Shown here: positions 48,806 through 63,788 of the stretch, one piece after another | How positions within the stretch are numbered: position 1 is the stretch's first letter | Layout: the number at the start of each line of letters is the position of its first letter | Origin: Ginsengibacter hankyongi | GTDB lineage: Bacteria; Bacteroidota; Bacteroidia; Chitinophagales; Chitinophagaceae | DNA: 64,000 bases | Reading direction: 5' to 3' | NCBI RefSeq assembly: GCF_008710285.1 | Contig: NZ_VYQF01000011.1 | Coordinates: 1-64,000, forward strand | Made by a program: the position numbers and the translations under genes | The notes under the pieces: model-generated | What the model was told of the DNA's origin: nothing | Databases searched by the model: none | What the model saw: only the letters and a program-made list of their open reading frames with translations

Positions 48806-48870
48806 TAAAACTACAGAAGTATGCGATGAAATTTAATGACCGCAATCACCGCTGCAAATGATTATGGACT
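48806..48870 (-). promoter_or_regulatory. tandem-dyad promoter of the PagL-like gene
   Basis: Read on the minus strand: distal dyad AGTCCATAATCA centred at 48864.5, proximal dyad TGATTGCGGTCA centred at 48842.5, then TAGTTTTA (48813-48806). Spacing is 22 bp between dyads and 23 nt from TCA to the -7 element. The distal upstream half is degenerate. Confidence 0.6.
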
Positions 48871-48933
48871 TTACTATTTAAGTCTCTTTGATGAGCCTCT
48901 TAATAAGTTGCCATCTTCTAATTGGAAATTTAC

Positions 48934-48998
48934 TTTCGCCAATCAGCAATGCCGATGACTGCGGTCATTCAAATTCACGGGTTACTCCCATAATTTCA
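48934..48998 (+). promoter_or_regulatory. tandem-dyad promoter of cysQ
   Basis: Distal TTTCGCCAATCA centred at 48939.5, proximal TGACTGCGGTCA centred at 48961.5, -7 element TAATTTCA at 48991-48998. The transcript start would be near 49003, 33 nt before the cysQ ATG. The proximal dyad is one of the best in the set. Confidence 0.6.
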
Positions 48999-49035
48999 AA
49001 GTGGAAATTTTCACCTCAACCAAACAGATGTACAA

Positions 49036-49812
49036 ATGGACATTAAGCCATTAATGCAAATAGCAGAAAAAGCAGCATTTGAAGCAGGCAAAGCAATAAT
49101 GGATGTGTATGGTTCCAGTGATTTTTCAACAGAACTAAAGAATAATAAATCGCCGGTAACAAAGGCTGATAAAAATGCTCATCAACTTATAACTGAATAT
49201 TTAAAAGAAACACATCTTTCTGTTCTTTCGGAAGAAGGATCGGATACTAATTTCCTGGAAAGACGATCGTGGGAATATTTTTGGCTGATAGATCCACTTG
49301 ACGGAACGAAAGAGTTTATAAATAAGAATGGTGAATTCACTGTTAATATAGCATTGTTAAAACAGAACAAACCCCTAGGGGGCATTATTTATAGACCATC
49401 TACAGGCACTTTATATACAGGCTCAAAAGAAACTGGTGTTTATAAAATCAAGAACGGTACACAAACCCAACTTTCACCTTTAACGAAAAGAACGACTTTC
49501 GATGAACTTCTAAAAAAAGACTGCGTAAGAATCGTTGCATCAAGATCTCATCCATCGCCGGAGACAAAGCTTTTTGCTGATAAGTTTAAAAATGTGACAC
49601 TGTTGACAATGGGAAGCGCACTTAAATTTATGCTGCTTCTTGAAAACGAAGCTGACATTTATCCAAGATATGGAACTACAATGGAATGGGACACTGCCGC
49701 AGCGCATGCTATTTTAAATGCGTCAAACCGCGGCGTATATCAATTAGATTTAAGATCGGAATTGATGTATAATAAACCGGATCTCCGGAATCCGTTTTTT
49801 ATTTCTTTTTGA
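49036..49812 (+). CDS. cysQ: 3'(2'),5'-bisphosphate nucleotidase CysQ
   Basis: 258 residues. The inositol-monophosphatase-superfamily motifs are present: VTKADKNAHQLI, LSEEG (metal-binding Glu), DPLDGTKEF (Asp86 and Asp89, the lithium-sensitive metal site) and TMEWDTAAAHAIL (second motif WDxAA). It hydrolyses PAP to AMP, relieving inhibition by the by-product of PAPS-dependent sulfation or sulfate reduction. Cytoplasmic. It stands alone under the promoter at 48934-48998. The preceding sulfatase locus makes a sulfur link tempting, but the promoter places it in the second island. Confidence 0.93.
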   Translation: MDIKPLMQIAEKAAFEAGKAIMDVYGSSDFSTELKNNKSPVTKADKNAHQLITEYLKETHLSVLSEEGSDTNFLERRSWEYFWLIDPLDGTKEFINKNGEFTVNIALLKQNKPLGGIIYRPSTGTLYTGSKETGVYKIKNGTQTQLSPLTKRTTFDELLKKDCVRIVASRSHPSPETKLFADKFKNVTLLTMGSALKFMLLLENEADIYPRYGTTMEWDTAAAHAILNASNRGVYQLDLRSELMYNKPDLRNPFFISF

Positions 49813-50143
49813 ATGAATGTGCGATCTTCAGGAGAATATAAATTTTTAAACGAAGGGTCAACAATAGTCTCAACAACTGTCTACAGAGATTTAAAAAATA
49901 TCTTCTTATCGGACTTACGATCCAGGCCGTCTTAATTAATAAAAGCTGGATTTCTTACAATCTTCCGGGAAAAAACAACTGCTGACCAAATGGCCTTCAC
50001 GGGTAGAAAGTCATATACTCCAGTGCCGGGAATCATTGTATTATTAACCATAATAATGTTCTTTTAATTGTCGAATGAAATGAAATATCGATCCTTAATA
50101 AGTAATATAAAAAAACTTTCGTAAAAATTAAAACAGGTTTAAA
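49813..50143. other. 331-bp gap upstream of the kinase pair
   Basis: No gene. It holds the promoter at 50002-50066 and leaves a 5' untranslated leader of about 70 nt before the ATG at 50144. No hairpin terminator with a T run follows cysQ. Confidence 0.5.
50002..50066 (+). promoter_or_regulatory. tandem-dyad promoter of the kinase pair
   Basis: Distal GGTAGAAAGTCA centred at 50007.5, proximal TGCCGGGAATCA centred at 50029.5 followed directly by TTG, -7 element TTCTTTTA at 50059-50066. Upstream half-sites are weak, but both TCA halves and all spacings agree with the other promoters. Confidence 0.5.
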
Positions 50144-50629
50144 ATGGTTGTAATAGTTTTCGGTTTACCGGGTTCTGGCAAAAGTTATTTTGCTGAAAGA
50201 CTTGCTAAATTGATTAAGGCTGATTATATAAATAGCGACAGGGTAAGGAAGGAGCTGTTTAAAAAGAGAACCTATTCAAAGGCCGAAAAACAATCAGTGT
50301 ACGATGAAATGCTGGCAACCATGAAGGACGCAGTTGATCAAGATAGGAATGTGGTCTTGGATGCAACATTTCATACAAAAGAAACAAGAAACCCATTTGT
50401 GAAGGAGATGAAAAGCAAGGGTGGAATTTATTTCATTGAAGTAACGGCCAATGAGGAATTAATCAGGGAAAGATTAAAAAAAGCGAGACCCTACAGCGAG
50501 GCTGATTTTAAGATTTATAAAATTATCGGCAGTGATAATGAACCGCTGAAGGAGCCGCACCTGGTATTGCAATCAACTAATAATAACATAGGAGAGATGC
50601 TTCAAAAAGCTTATGATTACCTGAAATAA
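50144..50629 (+). CDS. P-loop (AAA/zeta-toxin-like) kinase
   Basis: 161 residues. Walker A is GLPGSGKS at residues 7-14 and NSDRVRKELF is the DR segment of small P-loop kinases. VVLDATFHTKETRNPFV is the Walker-B-like strand with Asp and Thr, and RLKKARPYSEADF the lid region. This type occurs fused to an aminoglycoside-phosphotransferase-like domain in the DosR-regulated mycobacterial protein Rv2004c and its relatives. Here the two parts are separate genes 3 bp apart and in reversed order. The phosphorylated substrate is unknown. Cytoplasmic. Confidence 0.85.
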   Translation: MVVIVFGLPGSGKSYFAERLAKLIKADYINSDRVRKELFKKRTYSKAEKQSVYDEMLATMKDAVDQDRNVVLDATFHTKETRNPFVKEMKSKGGIYFIEVTANEELIRERLKKARPYSEADFKIYKIIGSDNEPLKEPHLVLQSTNNNIGEMLQKAYDYLK

Positions 50630-50632
50630 AAA

Positions 50633-51643
50633 ATGACAAAAGAACAAATCAATAGACTGGTTTCAGATGGAATATTTCCCGACGTCTCCGGGAATCGGGA
50701 ATTAATTGAAACCCACATATCATGGGTAATTAAGTGCAATAAATTCGTATACAAAATCAAAAAGCCGGTTCATTACTCATTCCTCGATTTTTCCACCGTT
50801 GAGTTACGACGACATTTTTGCGAAAGGGAAATTGAGCTGAATAGAAGATTGGCAAAAAAAGTATACCTGGATGTGCTGCCGATACATGAATGGAAGAGTA
50901 AATTTATTGTAGGTGGAAAAGGAGGGAAGATAATTGACAATACAGTGCGGATGCTTAAACTGGACGCGAATAAGCAAATGGATCATCTTTTAAAAAAGAA
51001 CCAGGTAACGAAATCCCATATAAAAAAGCTCGCTAAGACAATAGCCGGCTTCCACAAGCGCACTGAAATAATTTATGAAAAAGATTTTATGAAAATAAAA
51101 CAGGATTTTAGTGACCTGAAAGTTGATAAAACTTTTTTAGTTAACCAGTTGGGAAGCGAATACAACAACATGATTAATGATGCAGTGGAAAAATCAGATT
51201 CATTTATAGAACAGAATAAAGAACTGCTTGCAGCAAGGCTCCGTGACGGTTTGTACAGGGATTGCCACGGAGATTTACATTCGAGGAACATCTTTTTGTT
51301 GCCGGCTCCGTTGCCTTTCGATTGTATAGAATTCAATGATGATTTTCGCCAAATTGATGTGGTGAATGAGATCGCATTTCTTTGCATGGACCTTGATGCA
51401 TTTGGAAGGGAAGATCTTTCAGCTTTATTTATAGATTATTATAACCGTTTTTTTCCTGCGATAAAAACAAATAAAGACCATACTCTTTTTATTTATTATA
51501 AAAGCTATCGGGCTAACGTACGGGCAAAAGTAAACGGCCTGAGAGCAAAGTCAGCGGCGAACAAAGAAGATAGAACAAAAGCGCTGAGTGAGGCAGAAAA
51601 ATATCTTCGGCTGATGAATGATTATTTGCGATCTGTTGGATAG
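50633..51643 (+). CDS. aminoglycoside-phosphotransferase-like kinase
   Basis: 336 residues. THISWVIKCNKFVYKIKKPV gives the beta-strand Lys region of the kinase fold. YRDCHGDLHSRNIFL gives the catalytic loop (His212, Asp214), and FDCIEFNDDFRQIDVVNEIAFLCMD gives the metal-binding Asp230 and the following helix of this subgroup. It starts 3 bp after the P-loop kinase stop and is certainly cotranscribed. The pair corresponds to the fused Rv2004c-type protein of dormancy regulons. Resistance to aminoglycosides is not implied; the physiological substrate is unknown. It is convergent, 2 bp away, with a methyltransferase gene, and Rv2003c beside Rv2004c is also annotated as a methyltransferase. Confidence 0.85.
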   Translation: MTKEQINRLVSDGIFPDVSGNRELIETHISWVIKCNKFVYKIKKPVHYSFLDFSTVELRRHFCEREIELNRRLAKKVYLDVLPIHEWKSKFIVGGKGGKIIDNTVRMLKLDANKQMDHLLKKNQVTKSHIKKLAKTIAGFHKRTEIIYEKDFMKIKQDFSDLKVDKTFLVNQLGSEYNNMINDAVEKSDSFIEQNKELLAARLRDGLYRDCHGDLHSRNIFLLPAPLPFDCIEFNDDFRQIDVVNEIAFLCMDLDAFGREDLSALFIDYYNRFFPAIKTNKDHTLFIYYKSYRANVRAKVNGLRAKSAANKEDRTKALSEAEKYLRLMNDYLRSVG

Positions 51644-51645
51644 GC

Positions 51646-52281
51646 TTATTTAACTGCTTTTACCAAAACAAATGATCCTTTTCCATAACCAGGCAAAGGC
51701 GTTTCCGTACTTTCGGTTTTATCAAGAGCATGAAACAATGTTTGCGAAAACTGCAATTCTTTAAATCCTGCTTTTTTTAATTCCTCTTCAACTTTGTTCA
51801 CTGAATAGAAATTAGCGTGTTTATAAAAAATGCTTTTCGGTTTCCTGTCTTCATAATACTTCCCTATTCGGCTGTTTTTATCTATAAAGCCAACGATGAG
51901 GCAGCCTTTCCGTTTCAGTACTCTCAGGGCTTCCTTAAAGGCGTCCTGAACGTCAGTGAAATAACTAATACAAGAATTCATTAGCACAAAATCGAACTGA
52001 AGAGATTTGTAAGGCAGCTTTTCAGCTACTGCGTTCATGACAAAAATCTTTTTCTTTAGTGCCAGCGCACGCATATTTGCAGCCGGTTCTATTCCTTCTT
52101 TTATCCCTAATGCCTTTGCAAAGCGGCCGGTGCCTAATCCCACTTCAATGCCGTGAATATTTTCTCCCTTTGGCATTAACTCTCTTATTGCGGCTACTTC
52201 TGATTTAAATACAAAAGGATATTTTTTATACCACTCTTCATATTCAGCCACATGATCATTAAATGGAAGTGTTAGCGTCAT
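51646..52281 (-). CDS. class I SAM-dependent methyltransferase
   Basis: 211 residues. Motif I is GIEVGLGTGRFAKALG, followed by the acidic motif II GIEPAANM, the motif AEKLPYKSLQFDFVLMNS and KEALRVLKRKGCLIVGFID. This is the Methyltransf_11 pattern. No substrate domain is attached. It is read from its own tandem-dyad promoter at 52323-52387 and faces the kinase pair tail to tail with only 2 bp between stops, leaving no room for a separate terminator. Cytoplasmic; substrate unknown. Confidence 0.88.
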   Translation of the reverse strand: MTLTLPFNDHVAEYEEWYKKYPFVFKSEVAAIRELMPKGENIHGIEVGLGTGRFAKALGIKEGIEPAANMRALALKKKIFVMNAVAEKLPYKSLQFDFVLMNSCISYFTDVQDAFKEALRVLKRKGCLIVGFIDKNSRIGKYYEDRKPKSIFYKHANFYSVNKVEEELKKAGFKELQFSQTLFHALDKTESTETPLPGYGKGSFVLVKAVK

Positions 52282-52322
52282 AACAAAATTTATAATAGAT
52301 AAATCAAATAAAATCCTGTTTG

Positions 52323-52387
52323 TAAAGCAACTCTAAATAAGTATTATATACAATGACAGTTATCACTGATGCTAGTGATGACAGTCA
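52323..52387 (-). promoter_or_regulatory. tandem-dyad promoter of the methyltransferase gene
   Basis: Read on the minus strand: distal TGACTGTCATCA centred at 52381.5, proximal TGATAACTGTCA centred at 52359.5 followed directly by TTG, then TTGCTTTA (52330-52323). Both dyads are complete TGA-N6-TCA. The start would lie near 52318, 37 nt before the ATG. Confidence 0.65.
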
Positions 52388-52519
52388 GTAATATAAAAAT
52401 GAGAACAATGAAATCGGCTACATCAATCATTTTTGAACTCTTTAGAAAGCAGCTATTATTGTTTCACCACTTAAATGATATGTAGCTTAATCGTGATTGA
52501 CCAGGAAAATATTGAATTC

Positions 52520-52765
52520 TTACTTTTTGTTCTGCATGATATAATTCACAAGATCTTTCAGCGTAGTGATCTTCCCGTAATCCTCTTCAGGTGTTTCAAT
52601 TCCAAACTGCTCATCGAGTGCTACAACAAATTGCAACGCATCAAAAGAATCTATTTCCAATGTATGCCGGATGTCATCTTCCGGTTCCAGTTTTTCAGGT
52701 TCTGTATCAGGAGCAATTTTTTTCAGCAACTGAAAAATTATTTGTTTGATTTCCGGTTCTGTCAT
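52520..52765 (-). CDS. acyl carrier protein
   Basis: 81 residues, acidic. Ser40 in LEIDSFDALQFV is the phosphopantetheine attachment site, with DIRHTLEIDS before it and ALDEQFGIETPEED after. It differs from the housekeeping AcpP consensus (GADSLD), so it is a specialised carrier. Its ATG overlaps the E2 stop (ATGA), giving translational coupling. As the last gene of an AcsA/pyruvate-dehydrogenase operon it could accept an acyl group made from acetyl-CoA; no ketosynthase or holo-ACP synthase is nearby in the window. Confidence 0.9.
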   Translation of the reverse strand: MTEPEIKQIIFQLLKKIAPDTEPEKLEPEDDIRHTLEIDSFDALQFVVALDEQFGIETPEEDYGKITTLKDLVNYIMQNKK

Positions 52766-53913
52766 AACGCTTCTGGTTTTTGTAAATGATTTTTTACAGC
52801 CATTAAAAAACGACTTCCTGTTGCTCCGTCTGATGCACGATGATCAGCGGATAAAGTAATGGTCAACACAGGCCGCACATCCAGCATCCCTGATTCTGCC
52901 CAGGGTTGTTCAATAATGCTGCCAAAGCCTGCCAGGGCCACTTGTGGCGGATAGATTACACCATAAACGGTCTCAACATTTCCTTCGCCCAGGCTGGTAA
53001 CCGTAAAGGTTGATTCGCTTAATTCAGAACTTCTCAGCTTCATTGCCCTTGCTCTCGGAATAATATCATTCAGTGAAGTCATCAGTTCATCAACCGTTTT
53101 TTTATCAGCGTTATGAATAGCTGGTATCATTACACCACCTGTCCGCAATGAAACCACAAAACCAATATTGATATCTTGCTTTTGATGCAAACCATTTTCC
53201 CAATAGCCATTGAGATCGGGCAATTCTGTCAATGCTTTGGCGACCGCTTTTATTAATAATACAACCGGCAGCAATCTTTGTTTTACTGATCGTTGCTTAT
53301 TTGCTCCAGCCAGCCAGGATAATGCCTTGCTCATGTCAACTTTTGTTTCTAAATAGTAATGTGGTATTTCCCGGTTGGATTTACTCATAGCAGCAGCAAC
53401 AGCCATGCGGATATTTTCCGCTGTTGCTATTTTCTTTTCTTCTTTGGGCGCCATTTTTTCTACAATAGCTTTTTCCACATCATCTTTAGTAATGGCACCG
53501 TCTTCTCCAGTTCCGTGTATCGTATTTAACTCAATTCCTTTTTCTGCCGCAATTCTTTTTGCTAATGGCGAAGCTTTGATAAAATGGGGAGCTTTAGCGG
53601 CTACAATTTTTTCCATTGCTATTTTCTCTTCAACTTTTTTTGCCGGCTTTATTACTTCTTTCTTTATTCCTTCTTCTTTACCTGATGCAATCAATGCCAT
53701 CACAGTGCCCACCGGGACTTTTTCATTTTCTTTGATCACCAATTCACTGATGGTTCCTTCATCAAATACTTCAATATCTATCAAACCTTTTTGTGTATCC
53801 ACCACGGCAATAATATCTCCACGCTTAACAGGATTGCCGGGTTTTACGAGCCACTCCACCAAAGTACCCGCTTCCATATCAGCGCCAAGGCTGGGCATTT
53901 TAAACTCAATCAT
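52762..53913 (-). CDS. 2-oxo-acid dehydrogenase E2 (dihydrolipoamide acetyltransferase)
   Basis: 383 residues. One lipoyl domain (residues 1-78) carries Lys42 in [11 protein letters not shown] as the lipoylation site. An Ala/Lys/Glu/Pro-rich linker follows, then the peripheral subunit-binding domain ([34 protein letters not shown]). The catalytic domain ends in [11 protein letters not shown] with His358 and Asp362. It overlaps the E1 beta gene by 8 bp at its start and the ACP gene by 4 bp at its end. It transfers the acetyl group from lipoate to CoA. No E3 gene is present; the complex must borrow a lipoamide dehydrogenase encoded elsewhere. Confidence 0.92.
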
Positions 53914-54901
53914 GCTGTAACATTTTCTTTACCTTTTTAACAATGTCTGCATTCTGTGGTATGGAGGCATCTTCCAGGTGTTTGGGATAAGGAATCGGGA
54001 CTTCTACTCCGCCGAGCCTTTGCACTGGCGCATCCAGTTCATAAAAAACATTCTCCATAATTCTTGCGCTTACTTCCGACGAAACATTCACAGAACCCCA
54101 TGCTTCTTCTACCAATAATACCCTATGCGTCTTTTTTACCGAATTAAAAATAGTTACCTCATCCAATGGGCGTAGCACTCTTAAATCAATTACTTCTGCG
54201 TCTATCCCTGTTGCTATTAATTCTTTTGCAGCATCCAATGCTTTATATACTCCGGCTCCATAAGTGATAATGGAAACATCTCTTCCTTCACGACGAACTT
54301 TTGCTTTTGTAATATCTACCGCACCAGCATTGGCCGATATTTCTTCTTCTTTATTTAACAGGAAAGTATATTCAAAAATAATTACAGGGTCGCGGTTTTG
54401 TAACGCGGTTAATAGCATTCCTCTTGCATCTTCATGTGTACCTGCAGATAACACTTTTAATCCCGGAATATGCGCATACAATGGTTCCCAGCTATGTGAA
54501 TGTTGTGCAGCCAGTTGCCTGCCGATTCCGCAGCTTATTCGTATCACAACCGGTACATTTATTTGACCACCTGACATGTGTAATAAAGTGGCTGCATTAT
54601 TCACTATCTGGTCCATTGCCAACAAACTAAAATTCACTGTCATTATTTCCACAATAGGGCGCATGCCATTAAGTGCAGCGCCGATACCGGCACCCACAAA
54701 TCCGGATTCTGATAGGGGGACATCCATGATCCTTTCGGGACCAAACTCCTGCAGCAAACCTTTACTTACAGCAAAAGCGCCACCATAACGGCCTACATCT
54801 TCACCCATCAAAAAAACTTTTTCATCTTTTTGCAACGCTTCGCGAATACCTCGCTTAAGCGCTTCGCGATAAGTGAGTTTAATGATGTTGTTTTCACTCA
54901 T
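53906..54901 (-). CDS. pyruvate/2-oxo-acid dehydrogenase E1 beta subunit
   Basis: 331 residues. [33 protein letters not shown] is the standard start, with GEDVG binding Th[44 protein letters not shown] covers the catalytic Glu/His region. [27 protein letters not shown] and the transketolase C-domain [28 protein letters not shown] follow. It pairs with the E1 alpha at 55886-56884, but two small genes (flavodoxin, zinc ribbon) separate the subunit genes, which is unusual. It decarboxylates pyruvate or a related 2-oxo acid (acetoin is the main alternative). Confidence 0.92.
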
Positions 54902-54945
54902 TATTTTATTTTTGTTGAATCCGCTATTATACTGCTATCAAGCTA

Positions 54946-55218
54946 TTATAAAGTAACTGCCACCGTTTTCCATCTCTTTAAATTAGGTAAGGCGCTTACC
55001 GCTATATCAATTGCTCTCGAATCCATATTCATTTTTTCCATTTGAGTTATAACAATTGACGTCATTTCCTTTAAAGTCGTATTGGGATTAATGAAAGCTC
55101 CATCCCGGTAACAATACTTGCAATACTCATTGCTTTTAGTGCCATCTTTTTCTGTGCCCTGCAGATCGGGATTGTCTAACGGCATGCTGCAGCTTTGACA
55201 ATATGTTTCGGTTTGCAT
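54946..55218 (-). CDS. small zinc-ribbon protein
   Basis: 90 residues. ETYCQSCSMPLDNPDLQGTEKDG followed by EYCKYCYRDGAF gives two CxxC knuckles about 25 residues apart. The C-terminal helix region (TTLKEMTSIVITQMEKMNM) completes a form like the putative zinc-ribbon family PF12674. Its role is unknown; such proteins may bind nucleic acid or a partner enzyme. It lies inside the acetyl-CoA operon between flavodoxin and E1 beta with gaps of about 45 bp. Confidence 0.8.
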   Translation of the reverse strand: MQTETYCQSCSMPLDNPDLQGTEKDGTKSNEYCKYCYRDGAFINPNTTLKEMTSIVITQMEKMNMDSRAIDIAVSALPNLKRWKTVAVTL

Positions 55219-55263
55219 AATTTAATTATTTATAATTTAAATATTTTTTTCATGAGTAAATAA

Positions 55264-55836
55264 TTAGCCATGAGTCGCGACGCTGGTTGATGACAGTAGC
55301 TGTCCGCGATAATAAAAATCGTTGACCGAGTTTATCAAGGGTGTAAGGTTATCCTTTTTTACTGCATCAAGATCGGACCGCATAGCTTTTCTTTTTTCCG
55401 GATTTTTTTCAATCCTTACGCCAATTGCAACCATTAGCCGGTCGAATAAAGTAAGTTTTTTGTGTATTAACCTTCCGGGAAGAAAATATATGGAACTCTT
55501 TGCCCTTATTTCTCCAGGGAGATTATCCAGCACAAATTTATCTCGCTTGGCCAATTCACCAGGCGCCGTGGCATTTACAATAAAAAAGAATAATTTTTTA
55601 TTCCTGATATTCTTCATGTTTTTCCTTATCCATTTTAACATCCTGAACTTTCCCATATAAACAGGGGTGCCAATCAATAAAAAATCAGCGTTTGTTACTT
55701 GTGCTGCTGTTGTTTCACCGCTGCGTATTAACGGTATTTTCAACGCCTGGGCCAGCCATTCTGCATATTGCCTGGTAGCTCCGTATTTACTGTTATAAAT
55801 AATTAACCCATTCAATATCGAATCTTTATTTTTCAT
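55264..55836 (-). CDS. flavodoxin-domain protein (HemG-like)
   Basis: 190 residues. LIIYNSKYGATRQYAEWLAQAL is the flavodoxin FMN-phosphate loop, and ADFLLIGTPVYMGKFRMLKWIRKNM the second FMN region. FFFIVNATAPGELAKRDKFVLDNLP and the C-terminal part resemble menaquinone-dependent protoporphyrinogen oxidase (HemG) type flavodoxins. It may carry electrons between a dehydrogenase and quinone. Within this operon a redox role connected with the 2-oxo-acid dehydrogenase or with survival at low oxygen is plausible but inferred. Cytoplasmic. Confidence 0.82.
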   Translation of the reverse strand: MKNKDSILNGLIIYNSKYGATRQYAEWLAQALKIPLIRSGETTAAQVTNADFLLIGTPVYMGKFRMLKWIRKNMKNIRNKKLFFFIVNATAPGELAKRDKFVLDNLPGEIRAKSSIYFLPGRLIHKKLTLFDRLMVAIGVRIEKNPEKRKAMRSDLDAVKKDNLTPLINSVNDFYYRGQLLSSTSVATHG

Positions 55837-55885
55837 GTTATCAATTTTAAATTAAGTAATTATTAACGTTAACTAACGGTGCCGG

Positions 55886-56884
55886 TTATCCGTTTTCGCT
55901 ATATACAAATTTTGTCAATTCTTCTGCCGGTTCCCATGTTCCCGCCTCAGCGAAGTCCACTGCTTTTTGAACTTCGTCCTCCACCTTTTTGCTCATGATC
56001 ACTATATCATTTTGTGAAATGAAATTTTCGCCAAGCATTTGTTGCTGCAGTTTTGGAATGGGGTCTCGTTTTTTCCACTCTTCCACTTCGGTTTTATCAC
56101 GGTATAATTCTGCATCAAACATGGAATGAGCACGAAAGCGATAGGTGTTGCAAACAATAAAGTATGGCTTTCCTGTGGCGTGTATTTTTTCAACGGCTCT
56201 CCCGGCTGCATTTTCCACTGCCAATACATCCATCCCATCCACAACAACAGTTTCAATACCATAAGCCGGCCCTTTTTTTTCTATTTCTGTTACTGCATGA
56301 GAATACCTGATTGCAGTTCCCATAGCATACAAATTGTTTTCGCAAACAAACAAAACAGGCACACTCCATAATGCCGCAAGGTTCATAGCTTCATGAAATT
56401 CACCTTCTGCCGCAGCGCCTTCACCAAAGAAACAAACCGTGATATTATTTTTCTTTTGCTTTTTGGAAGCCAGTGCCATACCAACAGACATAGCCAGGTG
56501 CCCACCCACAATAGCATTCCCTCCGTAAAATTTTCTCTTCGCATCAAATAAATGCATAGAACCGCCACGACCACGACTGCAGCCCTCCTGCTTTCCGTAC
56601 ATTTCAGCCATAATCATTCCGGCGTCTATGCCTCTTGCCAGTGCATGGCCATGTTCACGATATGTACAAAGTATATTATCATCAGCACTTAATGTGTTGA
56701 TCACTCCAACTGCTACAGCTTCTTCACCTACGTACAAATGCAGGAATCCACGGATTTTTTCTTTTGTATATAATTCAGCACTTTTTTCTTCAAACCTACG
56801 TATCAGCATCATCTGGTACAAAAGATCTAAGCCATGATTTTTTTCTATTGCCGGGAGGGATTGTATAGTTTGTACTTCTTCCAT
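55886..56884 (-). CDS. pyruvate/2-oxo-acid dehydrogenase E1 alpha subunit
   Basis: 332 residues. [40 protein letters not shown] is the classical PdhA/AcoA start. [24 protein letters not shown] precedes the ThDP motif [33 protein letters not shown], in which the usual GDG is [14 protein letters not shown] is the phosphorylation-loop region of eukaryotic homologues. It starts 8 bp after the AcsA stop. Pyruvate is the likeliest substrate; acetoin dehydrogenase E1 is similar and cannot be excluded. Confidence 0.92.
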
Positions 56885-56891
56885 AAATTGA

Positions 56892-58655
56892 TTATGGGGT
56901 TTGTTCTAATGTTGAAATATCTCCTTCTGGCAACCCCAGTTCCCTTGCTTTTAATAACCGTCTTAATATTTTTCCGCTTTTTGTTTTGGGTAGTTCGTTT
57001 ACAAAAGCAATTTCTTTTGGTGCAACAGCCGCACCTAATTTTTTTCTCGCATAACCGATAATATCCAATTGCATTTTTTCATCAGCGGTAAATCCTTTTT
57101 TTAATACTATGAAAGCTTTCACTAATTCGCCAATTATTGGTTCAGGTTTTCCAATCACTGCAGCTTCCGCCACAGCGGGATGTTCCATTACAATATTTTC
57201 CACTTCAAAGGGGCCTACCATGTGGCCCGAACTTTTGATAATATCATCGGCTCTGCCAACAAACCAATAATAACCGTCTTTATCTTTTTTTGCTAAGTCG
57301 CCTGTTAGGTACCAATCGCCGCGAAAAGATTTTTTATAGCGTTCTTCATCATGCAGGTATGAGCGAAACATAGAAGGCCATCCTTTTTTTAATATTAAAT
57401 GACCTTGTTTATTTGGCTCTGTTATAATTTCTATTTCTGTATCCGTTACTTCTGCTATGGCTGCTTCCACACCCGGTAAAGGTTTTCCCATGCTGCCGGG
57501 TTTTACTTTCATCGATAGATAGTTGGCAATCATAATACCACCTGTTTCTGTTTGCCACCAGTTATCCAGTATTGGCATACCAAAAGTTTTTTCTCCCCAA
57601 AGCACTGCTTCTGCATGTAATGGTTCACCTACGCTGCATATTAACCGGAGATGTTCAAGATTATATTTTTCTTTTGGTTGAATATCCATCCTCATTAATC
57701 TTCGTATTGCAGTTGGAGCCGTGTACCAAACATTTACTTTTTGGTCCTCCAGGATAGAATACCATCTCACTGCATCAAATTCTTCTGCATCGACAACATT
57801 GGTAATGCCATTTACCAGGGGTGCAATAATCCCATAGGAAGTTCCGGTAACCCATCCGGGGTCTGCAGTGCACCAGAAAATATCTCCTTCATGAAAATCT
57901 AAAACATACTTGCCGGTAATATAATGCATCAGCACAGCACCATGCACATGCAATGCACCCTTAGGGATACCTGTAGTACCACTGGTAAAATGAAGCAGGG
58001 CGGGATCTTCCGGATCAGTCGGTGGAATAAAAAATTCATCATAAGCTTCTTCCAACAATCTTGGCAGTGATAGGACTTTATCATTCACATGCAATTCTTC
58101 ATCAGTTAATAAAATAAATTGAAGCATTGGTAATCTATCAAGCAATTGCTTTACTTTTTTTTCAAACAATTCTTTAGTTGTAACTAACACTTTTGCATCG
58201 CCTTTACTTAAACGCTGAAATATGGGCTCAGGCCCAAATACTGAGAACAAGGGACAAAATACCGCTGTCTTTTTTAAGGTGCCAAGTGCAGCGATATATA
58301 ATTCAGGTATCCTGCCGGTTAATGCAAAAACCCTTTCACCTTTTTTTATTCCTAATGAGGTAAGCACATTGGCAAAACGTGAACTGAGTTTATGTATATC
58401 GTAATAAGTAAAGTCTTTAAAGGTTTTATCTTTTAGTATCCAGCGGAGAGCAACAGTGTCTTTTAATTTCCCCTTAGCATGTCGCTCCAGCGCTTCATAA
58501 GCTATATTAAATCCTTTTTGTTCGGGTAATCCATCCAGGAATTTTTGTTCATCCTGCCAGGTAAAAGAATGGCGGAAGACTTCATAATCCTTTAGGTTTG
58601 GAACAACACCGGGAGATAATGTAATTCCGGATCGATTTTGCATTGACTCATTCAT
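56892..58655 (-). CDS. acsA: acetyl-CoA synthetase (AcsA-type)
   Basis: 587 residues. The P-loop-like motif is [17 protein letters not shown]. The adenylation signature is [54 protein letters not shown] is the hinge and C-domain entry, and [15 protein letters not shown] contains the catalytic Lys that is often acetylated. The length and sequence fit the shorter AcsA subgroup of Firmicutes type rather than the 650-residue Acs. It makes acetyl-CoA from acetate, CoA and ATP, and it shares an operon with a pyruvate-type dehydrogenase that makes the same product. Confidence 0.93.
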
Positions 58656-58666
58656 TTTTATAAATC

Positions 58667-59095
58667 CTATAAAAGTGTTTCAGGCTTGTCTTCATTTTCC
58701 GTAAACTTTTCCTCATAATCAGAAATTATCAATTCATCAGAAGAACTTCTTCCAAATTCATTTACCTCTTTTAGAGTAAAATCATCCATGCCTGTTGTTT
58801 GCTCCCATTTGTCTTTTTCTTTGCGCAGAATTTGAACAGAAAGGCCAAAGCGCTGTATGAATTCTTTCTCAACATCTGCAATTCGATAGTAGGGTTGAAT
58901 TTCCAATAAACCGGATACATGACTGAGTTTAATATCACCCACCAGGCTGTTAGGATCAAGGCGGTCTGCTTCTGAAGAAGCTTCATATTTTTTGTGTGGT
59001 TTATGAAAAAAATCAATTTTCAGGTAAGGATAATAGTTAGAAAATGTTTCCTGTATTTCCCTAAAACTTGTGTTATCATTTATTTCGAGATGCAT
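58667..59095 (-). CDS. hypothetical protein, first gene of the acetyl-CoA operon
   Basis: 142 residues, acidic, no signal or membrane segment. It contains [68 protein letters not shown] and an acidic tail. I do not recognise a named family; the alpha/beta look and the absence of catalytic motifs suggest a small regulatory or binding protein. It is followed by AcsA after 11 bp and read from the promoter at 59133-59197, which has the best -7 element of the series. Confidence 0.8.
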
Positions 59096-59132
59096 TACTA
59101 CATTTATAAGTTGTTAGTAAATGAAGCCATCT

Positions 59133-59197
59133 CAAAGCTATTGCAAGGTTGTAGCAGGCTCAATGATAACCGTTACCCGAGGGTATGATGGTGGTCA
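59133..59197 (-). promoter_or_regulatory. tandem-dyad promoter of the acetyl-CoA operon
   Basis: Read on the minus strand: distal TGACCACCATCA centred at 59191.5, proximal TAACGGTTATCA centred at 59169.5 followed directly by TTG, then TAGCTTTG (59140-59133), an exact TAnnTTTG. Eight genes down to 52520 lie behind it with no gap over 51 bp. Confidence 0.7.
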
Positions 59198-59274
59198 GAA
59201 TTTGGTTATCGATATTTTAAATTAGAAGACAAAAATTTATCATCACTTAGAAAATAAAATCATTCCGCTAATTC

Positions 59275-59339
59275 TGATTAATATCATTCAGTTCACTGCA
59301 CACCGTCATCTATATAAGTTGTTCAACATTGTAATTTCA
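59275..59339 (+). promoter_or_regulatory. tandem-dyad promoter of polX-nrdJ
   Basis: Distal TGATTAATATCA centred at 59280.5, proximal TGCACACCGTCA centred at 59302.5, -7 element TAATTTCA at 59332-59339, the same octamer as for cysQ. The start would be near 59344, giving a very short leader before the ATG at 59356. Confidence 0.6.
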
Positions 59340-59355
59340 TTAAAAAGAAAAGATT

Positions 59356-61095
59356 ATGCCTGTTGTAAATAAAGAGTTAGGCAAGATTTTTAGTGACATG
59401 TCTCATATTTATCAATATAAAAATGGTAAGCAGAGATTCCGTGCTATAGCATATGAAAAAGCATCAAGAGTAATTAATGATCTACAGGACGATATTACAA
59501 CGTTCACTAAAAAAGGCCAGCTGGAAGAAATACCCGGGGTTGGGTCGAGTATCGCAGAAAAAATAAATGAATATGTCAAAACAGGAAAGATCAAAAAATT
59601 TGAGAGCCTGAAAAAAACGGTTCCTATTGACATGCTCGAACTCATGAATATTTCAGGGTTTGGACCGCAATCTTTAAAGCGCATTCACCAAAGGTTAAAA
59701 ATTAATAATCGTGATGAAGTGATAAAGGCTTTGCAGGATGGAAGGATCAGTGAAATAAAAGGCTTTGGAAAGAAAAAGGTGGATAACATGCTTCGTAGCC
59801 TGAAGCTGCATAAAACGGTTGAAGAACGCATGTTGCTTTGGAATGCGATTGAAGCAGGCAACAAGGTCCTGGATGAATTTAAAAAGATGAAAGAAGTACG
59901 GCAGGCAGAGTTGGCTGGCAGCCTTCGAAGAAAAAAAGAAACCATAGGCGATATAGATATTTTAGTTACATGTGATGAAAAGAGCAGGAAAAAAATTATT
60001 ACAAAGTTTGTAGCTCTTCCTCTTGTTAAAGAAGTGCTTGCGAAAGGCGACACCAAAGCCAGTGTAATTATTAATGAGTTTAACAAGCAGGTAGATGTTC
60101 GTATCATTAATCCTGATGAATGGGGTTCTGCTTTATTATACTTCACAGGATCAAAAGAGCATAATGTTCAGTTGCGAACCATAGCCAGGGATAAAGGATA
60201 TAAGATAAGTGAATATGGTTTGTTCGATATAAAGACGGGCAAACGAATTGCCGGAGGCACCGAAGAAGAAATCTATAACAAATTGGGATTTGAATCGATT
60301 CCTCCCGAGATGCGTGAACAAAAAGGCGAGCTTGATCTTGCTGCCAAAAATAAAATTCCTTCGCTGGTTACATTGACAGACATAAAAGGCGACATGCAAA
60401 TGCACAGTACCTGGAGTGATGGAACAATGGATATTGAAGATTTGGCCCGGTTTGTTTCAGGGCATTATCCTTACGAATACATTGTATTGACAGACCATTC
60501 GAAATCAGAGATAATTGCAGGTGGAATGAATGAAGAACAATTTATTGACCAGGTAAAAGAGATCAGGCGTGTAAATACTAAACTGAAAAAAGATTTCATT
60601 AAAACGGGTACAGAAGTTGACATCAAGGCCGATGGCAGCTTAGATCTGAAAGATGAACTGCTTGAGCAATTGGATTGGGTTTGCGCTTCTATTCACACCG
60701 GGTTTACACATGATAATACAGAAAGAATTATTGCAGCTTGTGAAAATAAATTTGTGAATTGCATTGGTCATCCTTCAGGTAGATTAATTGGCCAACGGGA
60801 AGCTTACCCTGTTAATTGGGAAAAAGTTTTCAGAGTAGCTAAACAAACAAATACTGCTTTTGAAATTAATTGCCAGGCTGATCGTATGGACCTGAATGAT
60901 GAGCTCGCCATAATGGCAAGAGAAAATGGGGTTAAGCTGACCATCAGCACTGACAGTCATCAGCAAAGTCAATTCGCTTTTATGCAATTAGGAGTTTTTA
61001 TTGCCCGCCGTGCCTGGTGTACAAAGAACGATATATTGAATACAGCATCATGGAACGAGATTAAAAAATTTGCAGAACGTAAGAGAAAAAAATAA
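59356..61095 (+). CDS. polX: PolX-family DNA polymerase/3'-5' exonuclease
   Basis: 579 residues. The N-terminal helix-hairpin-helix region (LEEIPGVGSSIAEKINEY, MNISGFGPQSLKRIHQRL) binds DNA. The polymerase-beta nucleotidyltransferase motif is GDIDILVT with Asp199 and Asp201 as metal ligands, and VDVRIINPDEWGSALLYFTGSKEHN supplies the third. The C-terminal PHP phosphoesterase starts with MQMHSTWSDGTM (His350, Asp355) and runs to CINC-type FEINCQADRMDLND and TISTDSHQ. Both activities look intact. PolX repairs gaps and base lesions. It is followed after 7 bp by nrdJ, joining dNTP supply to repair synthesis. Confidence 0.95.
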   Translation: MPVVNKELGKIFSDMSHIYQYKNGKQRFRAIAYEKASRVINDLQDDITTFTKKGQLEEIPGVGSSIAEKINEYVKTGKIKKFESLKKTVPIDMLELMNISGFGPQSLKRIHQRLKINNRDEVIKALQDGRISEIKGFGKKKVDNMLRSLKLHKTVEERMLLWNAIEAGNKVLDEFKKMKEVRQAELAGSLRRKKETIGDIDILVTCDEKSRKKIITKFVALPLVKEVLAKGDTKASVIINEFNKQVDVRIINPDEWGSALLYFTGSKEHNVQLRTIARDKGYKISEYGLFDIKTGKRIAGGTEEEIYNKLGFESIPPEMREQKGELDLAAKNKIPSLVTLTDIKGDMQMHSTWSDGTMDIEDLARFVSGHYPYEYIVLTDHSKSEIIAGGMNEEQFIDQVKEIRRVNTKLKKDFIKTGTEVDIKADGSLDLKDELLEQLDWVCASIHTGFTHDNTERIIAACENKFVNCIGHPSGRLIGQREAYPVNWEKVFRVAKQTNTAFEINCQADRMDLNDELAIMARENGVKLTISTDSHQQSQFAFMQLGVFIARRAWCTKNDILNTASWNEIKKFAERKRKK

Positions 61096-61102
61096 TTATT
61101 CA

Positions 61103-62848
61103 ATGCCATTTTCAAAAAATGCTTTAAAGGTTTTGGAGAGCCGTTATCTCCGCAGAAATTTAAAAGGAGAATTAGCTGAAACTCCGGATGAATTATTTAT
61201 GAGAGTTGCTAAAGCGGTAGCAGAAGCAGAATTGGCGTGGGGAACACATAGCGAAGCAGAAAAATGGCAGGCGATATTTTATGAATCCATGAAGAACTTA
61301 TTATTCCTTCCGAATTCTCCTACGTTAATGAATGCAGGAACGTCATTAAATCAGCTAAGTGCTTGTTTTGTATTACCAATAGAAGATAATTTGGATAGCA
61401 TATTTACCACTTTAAAGAATGCAGCGATGATTCAACAAAGCGGCGGCGGTACCGGTTTTAATTTTTCACAGCTCAGGCCTAAGAATGATCTCATTTCAGT
61501 AACAGGTGGCGAAGCTTCAGGTCCTGTTTCATTCATGAAGGTTTTTAATTGCGCAACGGAACATGTAAAACATGGCGGAAAAAGGAGAGGAGCCAATATG
61601 GGTATTTTAAAAGTTGATCATCCCGACATTGAAGAATTTGTTGTTTCAAAAACAGATGAAAAAGCGCTGAACAATTTTAATATCTCCGTGGGCATTACCG
61701 ATAAATTTATGCAGGCTGTTGAGAAAGACGAAACGTGGGAACTCATTCATCCAAATTCCAAATCAATTATCAAAACAATAAAGGCAAAAGATTTATGGAG
61801 ATTAATTATAGAAAATGCCTGGTCAAGCGGTGATCCCGGATTAGTATTTCTGGATACCATTAATGCAGGTAATCCTTTGTTACCACTTGGGAAAATTGAA
61901 TGCACCAATCCATGCGGTGAAGTTCCATTGTTGCCTTACGAATCATGCAACCTGGGTTCTATAAACCTTTCAAAATTTGTTGAACAGGAAGGAAGAAAAA
62001 ACATTATCAATTTTACAAAGCTGGGATCAACAATTGAAATGGCCATTCGGTTTTTGGATAATGTAATTGAAGTGAACCATTACCTGCTTCCGCAAACGAA
62101 AACCATTGTTACAGCAAATAGAAAAATCGGTTTAGGTATAATGGGTTGGGCTGACCTGCTGATCATGCTTGAGCTTCCGTATGATTCCAATGAGGCAATA
62201 TCACTCGCTCACCAGGTAATGAAATTCTTCAAAGAAAAAAGCCTTGAAGCTTCCGTTCAACTGGCAAAGGAAAGAGGCGTTTTCAAAAATTGGGAGAAAA
62301 GCATTTTCTATCCAAATATTAAACTTCGCCATGCAACAAGATTAAGTATTGCGCCAACAGGAACTATCTCTATTATTGCTGACACTTCTTCGTCTATTGA
62401 ACCTTTGTTTGCCGTTGCTTATCGCCGCAGTCATGTGCTTGACGGAAATATTCTTTCAGAAATAAATCCTCTTTTTATTGATTATCTCAAAAAAAATAAA
62501 TTGTATTCTGAAGGCTTGATGGACGAAGTAAAAGAAACCGGGTACTTACAACATATCAAACAAATACCAGCCGCAACTAAGAATGTTTTTAAAACAGCTT
62601 TGGAGATTTCCCCTGACTGGCATTTGAAGCACCAGGTGGTTTTTCAGCGCTATGTTGATAATGCTGTTTCTAAAACAATCAACCTGGCCGAAACAGCCAG
62701 TGTGAGTGATATAAGTGAAATCTATTTGAATGCATGGAAACAAAAGACAAAAGGAATTACCATTTTCCGTTACAATTCAAAAAACAAGCAAGTACTTGAA
62801 AAGGGCATCAGCAGCGGCATACAATCCTGCAAGGTTTGTATTAATTAA
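61103..62848 (+). CDS. nrdJ: adenosylcobalamin-dependent (class II) ribonucleotide reductase
   Basis: About 581 residues from ATG 61103; a TTG at 61070 would overlap polX and is less likely. LNQLSACFVLPIEDNLDSIF holds the first active-site Cys. QQSGGGTGFNFSQLRPK and HVKHGGKRRGANMGIL precede NPCGEVPLLPYESCNLGSINL with the radical-site Cys and Asn/Glu. RLSIAPTGTISIIADTSSSIEPLFA follows. The C-terminal CKVC is the redox relay pair. Class II enzymes work with or without oxygen and need B12, fitting a low-oxygen or resting-cell programme. No ATP-cone domain precedes the barrel. Confidence 0.93.
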   Translation: MPFSKNALKVLESRYLRRNLKGELAETPDELFMRVAKAVAEAELAWGTHSEAEKWQAIFYESMKNLLFLPNSPTLMNAGTSLNQLSACFVLPIEDNLDSIFTTLKNAAMIQQSGGGTGFNFSQLRPKNDLISVTGGEASGPVSFMKVFNCATEHVKHGGKRRGANMGILKVDHPDIEEFVVSKTDEKALNNFNISVGITDKFMQAVEKDETWELIHPNSKSIIKTIKAKDLWRLIIENAWSSGDPGLVFLDTINAGNPLLPLGKIECTNPCGEVPLLPYESCNLGSINLSKFVEQEGRKNIINFTKLGSTIEMAIRFLDNVIEVNHYLLPQTKTIVTANRKIGLGIMGWADLLIMLELPYDSNEAISLAHQVMKFFKEKSLEASVQLAKERGVFKNWEKSIFYPNIKLRHATRLSIAPTGTISIIADTSSSIEPLFAVAYRRSHVLDGNILSEINPLFIDYLKKNKLYSEGLMDEVKETGYLQHIKQIPAATKNVFKTALEISPDWHLKHQVVFQRYVDNAVSKTINLAETASVSDISEIYLNAWKQKTKGITIFRYNSKNKQVLEKGISSGIQSCKVCIN

Positions 62849-62870
62849 ATTCAAAAAAATTGTTTTTTTA

Positions 62871-62899
62871 TAATAAAAAGGGACTGTATTAGCAGTCCC
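62871..62899 (-). terminator. intrinsic terminator (minus strand)
   Basis: A 7-bp GC-rich stem GGGACTG/CAGTCCC with a 6-nt loop (62880-62899) is followed on the minus strand by TTTTTATTA. It would end minus-strand transcripts coming from the PEBP gene. On the plus strand no T run follows, so it is a poor nrdJ terminator. Confidence 0.75.
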
Positions 62900-62954
62900 A
62901 CGATACAGTAGTTTTAATATCTTTTTGCGAATTTTCAAAGCATCCCCGTGTCAA

Positions 62955-62988
62955 TGACAACGGTCAGCATATCTGATGATAGACAGCA
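62955..62988. promoter_or_regulatory. orphan tandem dyads between convergent genes
   Basis: TGACAACGGTCA (centre 62960.5) and TGATAGACAGCA (centre 62982.5), 22 bp apart as in the promoters. Read on the minus strand the proximal dyad is followed by TTG. The expected -7 position (62931-62924) reads TTCGCAAA, which does not fit. A minus-strand transcript from here would meet the terminator after about 45 nt. Confidence 0.45.
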
Positions 62989-62997
62989 TTATTTAAA

Positions 62998-63495
62998 CTA
63001 TCGCCTTTTATATAAACCAATCAGTTCGCCGAATCCAAGAATATGATCGCTCATAGCTTTTTCCAATTCTATCTTTTTTGTTGTAGCAGGCAAACGCAAC
63101 AATGCATCCAGGGCATAAATTTTAAAAAAGTATCGATGGGTACCAGATGGCGGGCAGGGGCCGTTGTAATGATTTTTCTGAAAATCATTAATTCCTTCTA
63201 TACCCTTTATATCATTTTCTTTTATGTGGTGAGTTACGGGAATATTCCATACCACCCAATGAACCCATGTGCCAATCGGGGCATCGGGATCATCAACAAT
63301 CAAAGCAAGGCTTTTTGTTGCTTCCGGAATAACTTCAATTTCAAGCGAAGGGCTGATATTATCACCATCACAAGTATATTTTAAAGGAATATATTCATTG
63401 TTATTAAAAGCGGAACTGGTGATTTTTAGCTCCGGGTTAGTAACTTCAACAGATGGAATGGCGAATTCCTTGTCTGGTTGTTTTTTCTTTTGCAT
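62998..63495 (-). CDS. YbhB/YbcL-type phosphatidylethanolamine-binding protein
   Basis: 165 residues, no signal. IPLKYTCDGDNISPSLEIEVIPE, TKSLALIVDDPDAPIGTWVHWVVWNIP and GPCPPSGTHRYFFKIYALD are the three PEBP signature blocks containing the anion-pocket Asp, His and Pro residues. The bacterial homologues are usually called Raf-kinase-inhibitor-like; their ligand and role are unknown. It is read from promoter 63573-63637 with two complete dyads and ends at the terminator near 62880. It is divergent from the PRPP synthetase gene. Confidence 0.93.
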   Translation of the reverse strand: MQKKKQPDKEFAIPSVEVTNPELKITSSAFNNNEYIPLKYTCDGDNISPSLEIEVIPEATKSLALIVDDPDAPIGTWVHWVVWNIPVTHHIKENDIKGIEGINDFQKNHYNGPCPPSGTHRYFFKIYALDALLRLPATTKKIELEKAMSDHILGFGELIGLYKRR

Positions 63496-63572
63496 AATGA
63501 ACGTTTACTGCACTAAAAACATAAAGTTTAAAAAGAATCGCAAAAATTAAAGCGCCGTTTTTAAATATCCCC

Positions 63573-63637
63573 CAAAGCAAATACATTAATTGTTTGGCGT
63601 CAATGAGTATCGTCAGCGGTTCTATTGATTATGATCA
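63573..63637 (-). promoter_or_regulatory. tandem-dyad promoter of the PEBP gene
   Basis: Read on the minus strand: distal TGATCATAATCA centred at 63631.5, proximal TGACGATACTCA centred at 63609.5 followed directly by TTG, then TTGCTTTG (63580-63573). Both dyads are complete. Confidence 0.7.
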
Positions 63638-63723
63638 TTATAAAATCGTATTCAGCCAATAGAATGTTTTAAGGTTGATAAGCACAATTTATATTTCCCG
63701 AAGGCAAAACTGCTGTTGTTTTC

Positions 63724-63788
63724 TGATTACAATCAATGCAATCAATAATTATCGTCATAAATAAAGAATCCGGATATTAGTTCCTTTG
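63724..63788 (+). promoter_or_regulatory. tandem-dyad promoter of the PRPP synthetase gene
   Basis: Distal TGATTACAATCA centred at 63729.5, proximal TAATTATCGTCA centred at 63751.5, -7 element TTCCTTTG at 63781-63788. The start would be near 63793, 18 nt before the ATG. Confidence 0.65.

Follow-up and report, generated by a model that had tools for sequence, protein, structure and literature searches.

Paired Crp-type dyads in a 65-bp promoter layout of Ginsengibacter hankyongi and a candidate regulator in Bacteroidota

Here we describe a 65-bp promoter layout in Ginsengibacter hankyongi (Bacteroidota, Chitinophagaceae), in which two Crp-type dyads stand at a fixed distance from each other and from a -7 box. 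Eight copies lie in the first 64,000 nucleotides of contig NZ_VYQF01000011.1, the stretch that was analysed as a whole and is called the window below. We found that the layout is real, strict and genome-wide, and that it is recurrent across Bacteroidota. It is probable that the 65-mers are activator-dependent sigma-A promoters of one low-oxygen and stress regulon, whose most likely activator is REC-CRP, a fusion of a receiver domain with a Crp-type protein that is encoded outside the window. Contig C3 of this genome (G000; 5.5 Mb, 33 contigs) begins with the window. Gene starts and units were taken from a simple hexamer-based gene caller, which misplaced at least one start, and gene names given without a Pfam result are a reading of the sequence.

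The 65-bp layout and its position before genes

All eight 65-mers described in an earlier note on this DNA are present, as a check of coordinates and strands on the sequence showed. The TCA half is kept in 16 of 16 dyads and the full TGA half in 9 of 16, which bears out what had been claimed about their conservation. The promoters and the units they serve are as follows (scores in bits of the weight matrix described below; G517 is a genome of the same genus).

48806-48870 (-), 65-bp paired-dyad promoter, 29.9 bits, 56 bp before the start; serves 47656-48750 (-), a PagL-like protein (Pfam PagL match, 27.2 bits)
48934-48998 (+), 65-bp paired-dyad promoter, 23.3 bits, 38 bp before the start; serves 49036-49812 (+), inositol-monophosphatase family
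50002-50066 (+), 65-bp paired-dyad promoter, 20.0 bits; serves 50144-51643 (+), an AAA_33 P-loop protein and a 336-amino-acid protein without a Pfam match; counterpart in G517
52323-52387 (-), 65-bp paired-dyad promoter, 0 mismatches, 31.9 bits; serves 51646-52281 (-), a methyltransferase
59133-59197 (-), 65-bp paired-dyad promoter, 0 mismatches, 36.1 bits; serves the operon 52520-59095
52520-59095 (-), eight-gene operon behind promoter 59133-59197, whose genes overlap or stand no more than about 80 bp apart; encodes a 142-amino-acid protein, an AMP-binding (acetyl-CoA-synthetase-like) enzyme, E1-alpha, flavodoxin, a zinc ribbon, E1-beta, E2 and an acyl-carrier protein
59275-59339 (+), 65-bp paired-dyad promoter, 28.8 bits, 17 bp before the start; serves 59356-62848 (+), a PolX-type DNA polymerase and the large subunit of ribonucleotide reductase; counterpart in G517
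63573-63637 (-), 65-bp paired-dyad promoter, 0 mismatches, 31.6 bits; serves 62998-63495 (-), a phosphatidylethanolamine-binding (YbhB-like) protein
63724-63788 (+), 65-bp paired-dyad promoter, 0 mismatches, 32.0 bits, 23 bp before the start; serves the gene 63811-64782 (+), which runs past the window end and is a phosphoribosyl pyrophosphate (PRPP) synthase by reading of the sequence only; counterpart in G517

The earlier note had assigned the layout to every transcription unit of a second island. Each of the eight called units between 47,656 and 64,782 indeed has one copy upstream, but the layout is genome-wide and not specific to the island. We rejected the idea that this island is a special case, since its promoters are a subset of the genome-wide set.

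Searching the whole genome with the degenerate 65-bp pattern (at most one mismatch), we obtained 55 matches (26 + 29), as compared with 2 (1 + 1) for the reversed pattern. A stricter consensus with at most three mismatches gave 72 against 0, and the tandem dyads alone, with at most two mismatches, 346 against 123. With weight-matrix scores of just 2.7 and 9.2 bits, two of the 55 matches (C1:1979791 and C12:433286) look like chance matches. The matrix was trained on 50 sites, the window's eight among them, and was applied to 494 kb of G000, window included, covering all 55 matches, and to 220 kb elsewhere. The 494 kb hold 72 sites above 20 bits, a count that is partly circular because the training sites come from this genome; 66 of them lie at most 300 bp from a gene start on the same strand, with a median of 38 bp between the -7 box and the start codon. 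At a coding density of 83%, the dyads of one of the 72 fall inside an open reading frame, and this lone site (C4:96383) in fact stands immediately 5' of the ATG of a ferredoxin-like protein, for which the caller had placed the start too far upstream. The 220 kb contained no site above 15 bits and one above 13 bits, which lies inside an open reading frame. In these stretches the matrix, a test of the kind that the note had proposed, finds sites mostly before genes, and the promoter reading is supported by this position, by the -7 box and by the rigid spacing. A test set outside the matrix training, 80 loci with REC-CRP orthologues from other genomes (1.40 Mb), holds 227 sites above 17 bits, as compared with 0.4 in random (first-order Markov) sequence.

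The logo of the 50 sites reads TGAY-N4-RTCA, N10, TGAY-N4-RTCA-T, N22, TAnYTTTR, in which the Y after TGA, the R before TCA and the T after the proximal TCA are conserved although they lie outside the search pattern. In the 80 loci, 43 pairs of strict dyads are spaced 22 bp start to start, and no other distance between 13 and 59 collects more than 3. The element TWnnTTTR occurs 65 times at 23 nt after the proximal dyad and at most 6 times at any other offset from 0 to 60 (224 dyad pairs, both strands counted). In the accessible text of a start-site study, the flavobacterial sigma-A box lies at -12 to -5 (PMC9723704), and therefore the dyad centres fall at -41.5 and -63.5. The earlier note had arrived at the same geometry, which agrees with the 23-nt spacing, with the -12 to -5 rule and with the 5' ends of a conserved small RNA, whose invariant 5' GG lies at +1 to +3, counted from the start predicted for four promoters (three in G000, one in locus L064). 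These data agree with a dyad at the class II position -41.5 relative to the predicted transcript start. Since the dyad pair is symmetrical, one pair could serve two divergent promoters. In the hit stretches of G000, 18 pairs exceed 13 bits in both directions, with much of the score coming from the dyads themselves. Five pairs with about 20 bits or more on both sides (C1:176161, C1:184003, C1:591106, C23:1487 and C23:136742) are the best candidate cases of such a double use.

A receiver-Crp fusion as candidate regulator

We found five matches to the Crp-type helix-turn-helix family in G000. One of them, REC-CRP (G000:C1:810176-811234, - strand, 352 amino acids), has Pfam matches to Response_reg (PF00072, 93.7 bits), cNMP_binding (PF00027, 79.0 bits) and HTH_Crp_2 (PF13545, 57.0 bits). 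With a barrel followed by an HTH_Crp domain, the protein belongs to the Crp/Fnr superfamily; it starts with the receiver, and an FNR-type N-terminal cysteine cluster is absent from it. By its receiver and the adjoining kinase it is of the response-regulator type, and control by phosphorylation is predicted. In E. coli CRP, E181 and R185 read the TGA/TCA core, while E72, R82 and S83 contact cyclic AMP. Alignment of the REC-CRP helix TESVIR with RETVGR of CRP shows that E181 and R185 are kept and that R180 is replaced by T, which would fit a TGA core without the outer bases of CRP. The Crp/Fnr assignment made in the note gains support from this best candidate, which retains the recognition Glu and Arg. 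At the three cyclic AMP contacts, REC-CRP has Y, K and D, and because these contacts are replaced, input through the receiver and not through cyclic AMP is plausible.

REC-CRP is surrounded by paired promoters. The gene of a PAS histidine kinase lies directly upstream, preceded by an 83-amino-acid DUF4342 gene with a 31.7-bit paired promoter, and on the other side an Hsp20 gene with a 30.3-bit paired promoter is convergent. Between 793 and 829 kb of C1, ten paired promoters exceed 20 bits, including those of a cbb3 oxidase (a COX1-FixO fusion by Pfam), a HemN-like, a universal-stress-type and an Hsp20 gene. The closest relatives of REC-CRP are in Bacteroidota records, many of them from Chitinophagaceae, and 75 of the 80 orthologue loci (55-75% identity) hold at least one site above 17 bits. 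The gene adjoining upstream of REC-CRP has a kinase-type N-box in 73 of 75 judgeable loci. A paired promoter (above 13 bits) precedes this gene in 28 of the 75 and stands directly before REC-CRP in three loci. In record L084, titled Azovibrio restrictus (a betaproteobacterium), the kinase paired with REC-CRP starts almost exactly like the kinase of the Bacteroidota contig L086, and for this reason the metagenome-assembled genome looks mis-binned or mislabelled.

In a survey of 345 genomes of the phylum, counts of the strict consensus site were compared with the presence of REC-CRP (full-length match, E <= 4e-67) and of a stand-alone relative (match to the CRP part, E <= 1e-28). At least one site was present in 45 of the 49 genomes with REC-CRP (mean 7.61, median 5) and in 19 of the 40 with a stand-alone relative only (mean 2.62, median 0). 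The 256 genomes with neither showed a site in 25 cases (mean 0.12), and none had more than 2. Where a genome lacks REC-CRP and still has at least 3 sites (7 genomes), a stand-alone relative is always present. In the stand-alone proteins from genomes with sites (L144, L145, L149, L153-L157), an N-terminal CxxC is accompanied by zero to three more cysteines close by, and the helix reads GTATE[ST]xIR, in three of them the exact GTATESVIR of REC-CRP. The layout also occurs 25 and 26 times in two genomes of another class (G271 and G306; loci L144 and L145) whose proteins are without the receiver, which points to an exchange of the sensor part under an unaltered DNA code. In the tree built from 54 Crp domains, which drew on every third of the 80 loci wherever a row for REC-CRP could be recognised, the 29 rows of REC-CRP form a group with modest support (80/94); the bootstrap did not reach stability, and the backbone is not resolved. 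Overall, the co-occurrence favours one regulator for all 65-mers.

We propose the following mechanism. Two Crp-type dimers would bind the TGAY-N4-RTCA dyads on the same face of the DNA, with their centres 22 bp or two helix turns apart, and would act as activators rather than repressors. The proximal dimer would sit at the class II position, where a -33 element is missing, and bring RNA polymerase to the -7 box (TAnYTTTR); the distal dimer would add cooperative binding and a second polymerase contact; by its symmetry, the pair could do so for two divergent promoters. A drop in oxygen would lead the neighbouring PAS histidine kinase to phosphorylate REC-CRP, and in many genomes the kinase gene itself may stand under the same promoter.

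Several points weigh against this reading. Within the class (85 genomes, G000 excluded from the test), the comparison of genomes with REC-CRP and with none, which speaks for REC-CRP, gives p = 1e-7 when kinship is ignored, but this value overstates independence because the compared genomes are related. Four of the 49 genomes with REC-CRP lack a strict site, as do 21 of the 40 with only a stand-alone relative. Three of the four (L147, L148 and L152 of G226, G130 and G053) form a clade with the helix start GIA[TS]E in place of GTATE, which would fit an altered DNA preference. In one of the three congener promoters (G517:C71:96683), the -7 box is 24 nt away, not 23. Concerning the signal, the PAS domain of the kinase matched 14 solved chains, the first being the PAS of a multi-sensor kinase, followed by the heme-PAS proteins FixL and E. 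coli DosP. FixL has a heme-binding His and a distal Arg at its heme. The position of the heme-His is kept in 53 of 57 readable kinases (72 were examined; 12 had no motif and 3 matched elsewhere), but since the best solved match is not FixL and the distal Arg is Met here, heme binding by the kinase would be a weak reading, put forward as a hypothesis. Furthermore, 434 single strict dyads in the 80 loci include 13 with a -7 box at offset 23, against 0-3 at the other listed offsets, so that a small class of single-dyad promoters may exist. This class, together with the three of eight distal dyads in the window that are without any TGA-like half, is in line with a layout in which the proximal dyad alone is functional and the distal one a relic, a spacer or a DNA-shape element. 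We regard this as improbable, as strict dyads pair at exactly 22 bp in loci outside the training (43 against at most 3 elsewhere) and the distal TCA is conserved nearly like the proximal one, in sites selected by a pattern with both dyads. A reading of the 65-mers as copies of a dispersed repeat or mobile element, and not as a promoter code, is hardly credible: copies are numerous and partly clustered, but the logo shows likeness at motif positions only, and spacers and flanks are little shared, the small-RNA copies excepted. It is this limited conservation for which the repeat reading was set aside.

Other Crp proteins were also considered as readers of the sites. The earlier note had advised looking for a Crp/Fnr gene with the same sites, and the stand-alone Crp at G000:C28:235584 proved to have a paired site of 33.6 bits, so that it also counts among the points against REC-CRP as sole activator and could act on some or all 65-mers. 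The gene lies between nos-type genes and an NnrS-like gene (names partly by reading) in the stretch G000:C28:230494-242423, where the paired site is shared between divergent units and scores 33.6 bits towards the Crp and 14.6 the other way. This Crp may regulate itself or be regulated by REC-CRP. That a Crp of this type is the reader, sensing nitric oxide or redox, while REC-CRP just shares the neighbourhood, is in our view unlikely. In its favour, the gene has a paired promoter of its own, a 60%-identical relative in G150 also has one (36.0 bits), and by alignment the recognition Glu and Arg are present; however, the protein stands apart on a long branch in the tree, and its presence does not predict site number, for which reason it was set aside as sole reader. 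Genomes of the class with REC-CRP (G000 excluded) have 5.63 sites with the C28 type (n = 19) and 6.69 without it (n = 29; p = 0.87), and genomes without REC-CRP have 1.19 (n = 16) and 1.80 (n = 20). A somewhat better, though still doubtful, prospect is that several Crp types (REC-CRP, its stand-alone relatives and the C28 type) read one code and integrate phosphorelay, redox and nitric oxide inputs. Genomes without REC-CRP but with a stand-alone relative reach up to 26 sites (G271 and G306), the helix GTATE[ST]xIR is common to both kinds, some genomes such as G126 and G146 hold both, and the C28 gene carries a paired site. Against this, joint action of two regulators on one promoter in one cell would be hypothetical, and a search with the CRP part at E <= 1e-28 finds just REC-CRP itself in G000. 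The Crp genes C1:784516 and C1:139109 were set aside as readers, being distant from REC-CRP in pairwise comparison and in the tree. These two paralogues (G000:C1:139109-139741 and C1:784516-785154) are 39% identical and lie beside rhodanese, thioredoxin and TauE-like genes (by reading); near such sulfur/persulfide-type genes, they probably belong to a separate regulon. A fifth Crp-type frame (G000:C1:605942-606115) has an in-frame TAA near its 3' end.

Putatively regulated genes, a small RNA and the island as cargo

By Pfam, the genes behind the promoter in G000 include those for cbb3 oxidase, Hsp20, a NuoE/F-like subunit, a nos gene unit with the C28 Crp and a nitroreductase, and within the window ribonucleotide reductase, PolX and the 2-oxoacid-dehydrogenase operon. 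By reading, universal stress proteins, HemN, a HypC-like protein, phosphoenolpyruvate synthase and P-type ATPases can be added. Behind sites above 20 bits, the 80 loci have 169 first genes, 154 of them with at least 60 amino acids, and 145 of these were scanned for families. The scan found kinases (25), universal stress proteins (15), P-type ATPases (9), DoxX (7), COX1/FixO (4), Hsp20 (4), hemerythrin (3), FixS (2) and glutamyl-tRNA reductase (2), with the kinases over-represented because the loci were chosen for REC-CRP. These genes point to an oxygen-limitation and stress set, and it is from this gene content that we infer oxygen as the signal. In Flavobacterium psychrophilum, cbb3 and heme genes were reported to be raised under oxygen limitation, and neither crp nor fnr is mentioned in the main text of that paper (PMC9723704).

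The small RNA mentioned above came from two paired promoters that precede no open reading frame (C23:3828 and C23:241122). Behind each of them lies a unit of about 60 nt that includes an intrinsic terminator, and beyond it the two copies are no longer alike. The unit occurs in 192 of 294 genomes of the family (BLAST, E <= 0.001), often in at least two copies. In 27 aligned copies, all of them found by similarity, an invariant 5' stretch GGTTTTTCATA-GATATTGGA is followed by a terminator hairpin. Two-sided changes were seen in 3 of 10 predicted pairs, each in one sequence. In 714 kb of G000 there are seven copies, three of them behind a paired promoter.

C23:3899, C23:241192, C1:195997, C23:6239 and C23:240018 (+), small-RNA copies in G000
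C12:116180 and C12:116003 (-), small-RNA copies in G000
L226-L244 and L064:7585, small-RNA copies elsewhere

Among 30 rows examined, the paired promoter was found at three distinct places (C23:3828, C23:241122 and L064), and at none of 21 rows from other family genomes (L226-L244). Because those 21 rows are without the promoter, the small RNA is older and wider than its link to the regulon, which is seen in G000 and L064 only. A search of Rfam gave only a chance-level match to FnrS (19.2 bits, gathering score 60, E 0.61), and nothing at gathering score in three other small-RNA loci. A 20-base stretch of the small RNA is found exactly in five IMG/VR viral contigs (L245-L249), where it may stem from phage copies or from contaminating host DNA.

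In G517, much of the island is present in a different gene order. There, a paired promoter has been retained immediately before three orthologous units.

G517:C71:95009-95073, counterpart of the 50002 promoter, before the orthologous gene
G517:C71:96683, counterpart of the 59275 promoter, before the orthologous gene
G517:C71:100337-100401, counterpart of the 63724 promoter, before the orthologous gene

No conserved counterpart of the promoter 59133-59197 itself was seen in G517. The site at 116631 of G517 was rejected as such a counterpart; the acetyl-CoA-synthetase-like operon there is led by other genes and has its own paired promoter. A position-by-position comparison of G000 and G517 (67 of 76 motif positions identical, as compared with 85 of 184 others) was set aside, as it included this non-orthologous fourth pair and was partly circular. 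The PRPP-synthase-like gene of the island was found in 1 of 198 genomes of the class, G000 itself (E <= 1e-80), and the acetyl-CoA-synthetase-like gene in 2 of 59 related genomes, G000 and G517 (E <= 1e-200). The second island is narrowly distributed cargo under the promoter of a far more widespread regulon. The two genomes also share near-identical paired promoters at G000:C4:96383-96447 (-), the copy just before the ferredoxin-like gene, and G517:C71:131075-131139. Within the island's contig, two alike proteins of about 340 amino acids without a Pfam match (window:50633-51643 and G000:C3:64797-65843) both have an HGDL motif, which is reminiscent of aminoglycoside-phosphotransferase-like kinases. 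The arrangement of the AAA_33 protein followed by the 50633-51643 protein recalls that of Rv2004c.

Relation to known systems

In E. coli, the spacings of tandem CRP sites vary. The class II and tandem (class III) CRP promoters of E. coli resemble the 65-mers in having a dyad at -41.5, two sites on one side and a TGA...TCA core; they differ in that here a fixed 22-bp pair stands at dozens of promoters in many genera, together with a Bacteroidota -7 box and a distal dyad at -63.5. In the portion of the source available, the class II, I and III positions of CRP are given as -41.5, -61.5 and -93.5 (PMC5957442). The nearest solved relative of the CRP part is 2gau, a member of the Crp/Fnr family (96.2 bits over 187 residues), which matches without the receiver, and none of the best 60 of 215 rows spans both the receiver and the CRP part. 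In the paper listings searched, which include few subscription papers, we found no paired-dyad regulon of Bacteroidota and no receiver-Crp regulator of this kind, a weak negative.

The rhizobial FixL-FixJ-FixK cascade consists of a PAS kinase, a receiver protein with the LuxR-type output of FixJ and a Crp-type activator, with cbb3 genes as targets. The system described here likewise combines a PAS kinase (with FixL among the solved matches), a receiver and a Crp-type activator with cbb3 oxidase genes as targets. In contrast to the cascade, the receiver and the Crp output form one protein, there is no LuxR-type FixJ output domain, and heme is only hypothetical. DosR of mycobacteria is a NarL-type regulator, whereas the candidate here is of the Crp type, so that the likeness to DosS/DosR lies in gene content and logic and not in the regulator family. 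Both systems would use two-component control, and the set found here includes ribonucleotide reductase, nitroreductase, Hsp20 and universal stress proteins, the last of these by Pfam in relatives and by reading in G000. The dormancy genes beside DosR/DosS/DosT comprise a B12-dependent ribonucleotide reductase, nitroreductases, Rv2004c and a phosphoribosyltransferase, according to the parts of the source available (PMC5309233). The layout would be a variant of Crp class II activation, with a FixL-FixJ-FixK logic in which two of the parts are fused.

A broader reading is tentative and falls somewhat short of likely. The paired layout may be an old cis code of two Crp dimers for low-oxygen survival across Bacteroidota, in which the sensor was swapped (an FNR-like Crp with CxxC, or a Crp joined to a receiver, by which FixL-FixJ-FixK would shrink to two proteins), cargo islands adopted the promoter, and small-RNA copies came to be driven in some species, like enterobacterial FnrS.

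To our knowledge, little is understood about how oxygen shortage is sensed in aerobic and facultative Bacteroidota and how it comes to induce cbb3 oxidase, N2O reductase and stress proteins. REC-CRP and the 65-bp layout could explain low-oxygen adaptation across the phylum. With a strict, searchable promoter code and a candidate regulator, the regulon becomes predictable from sequence in many genomes. Moreover, the layout offers a natural system with two activator dyads in fixed register at dozens of promoters, and it may exemplify the replacement of a sensor under a DNA code that did not change.

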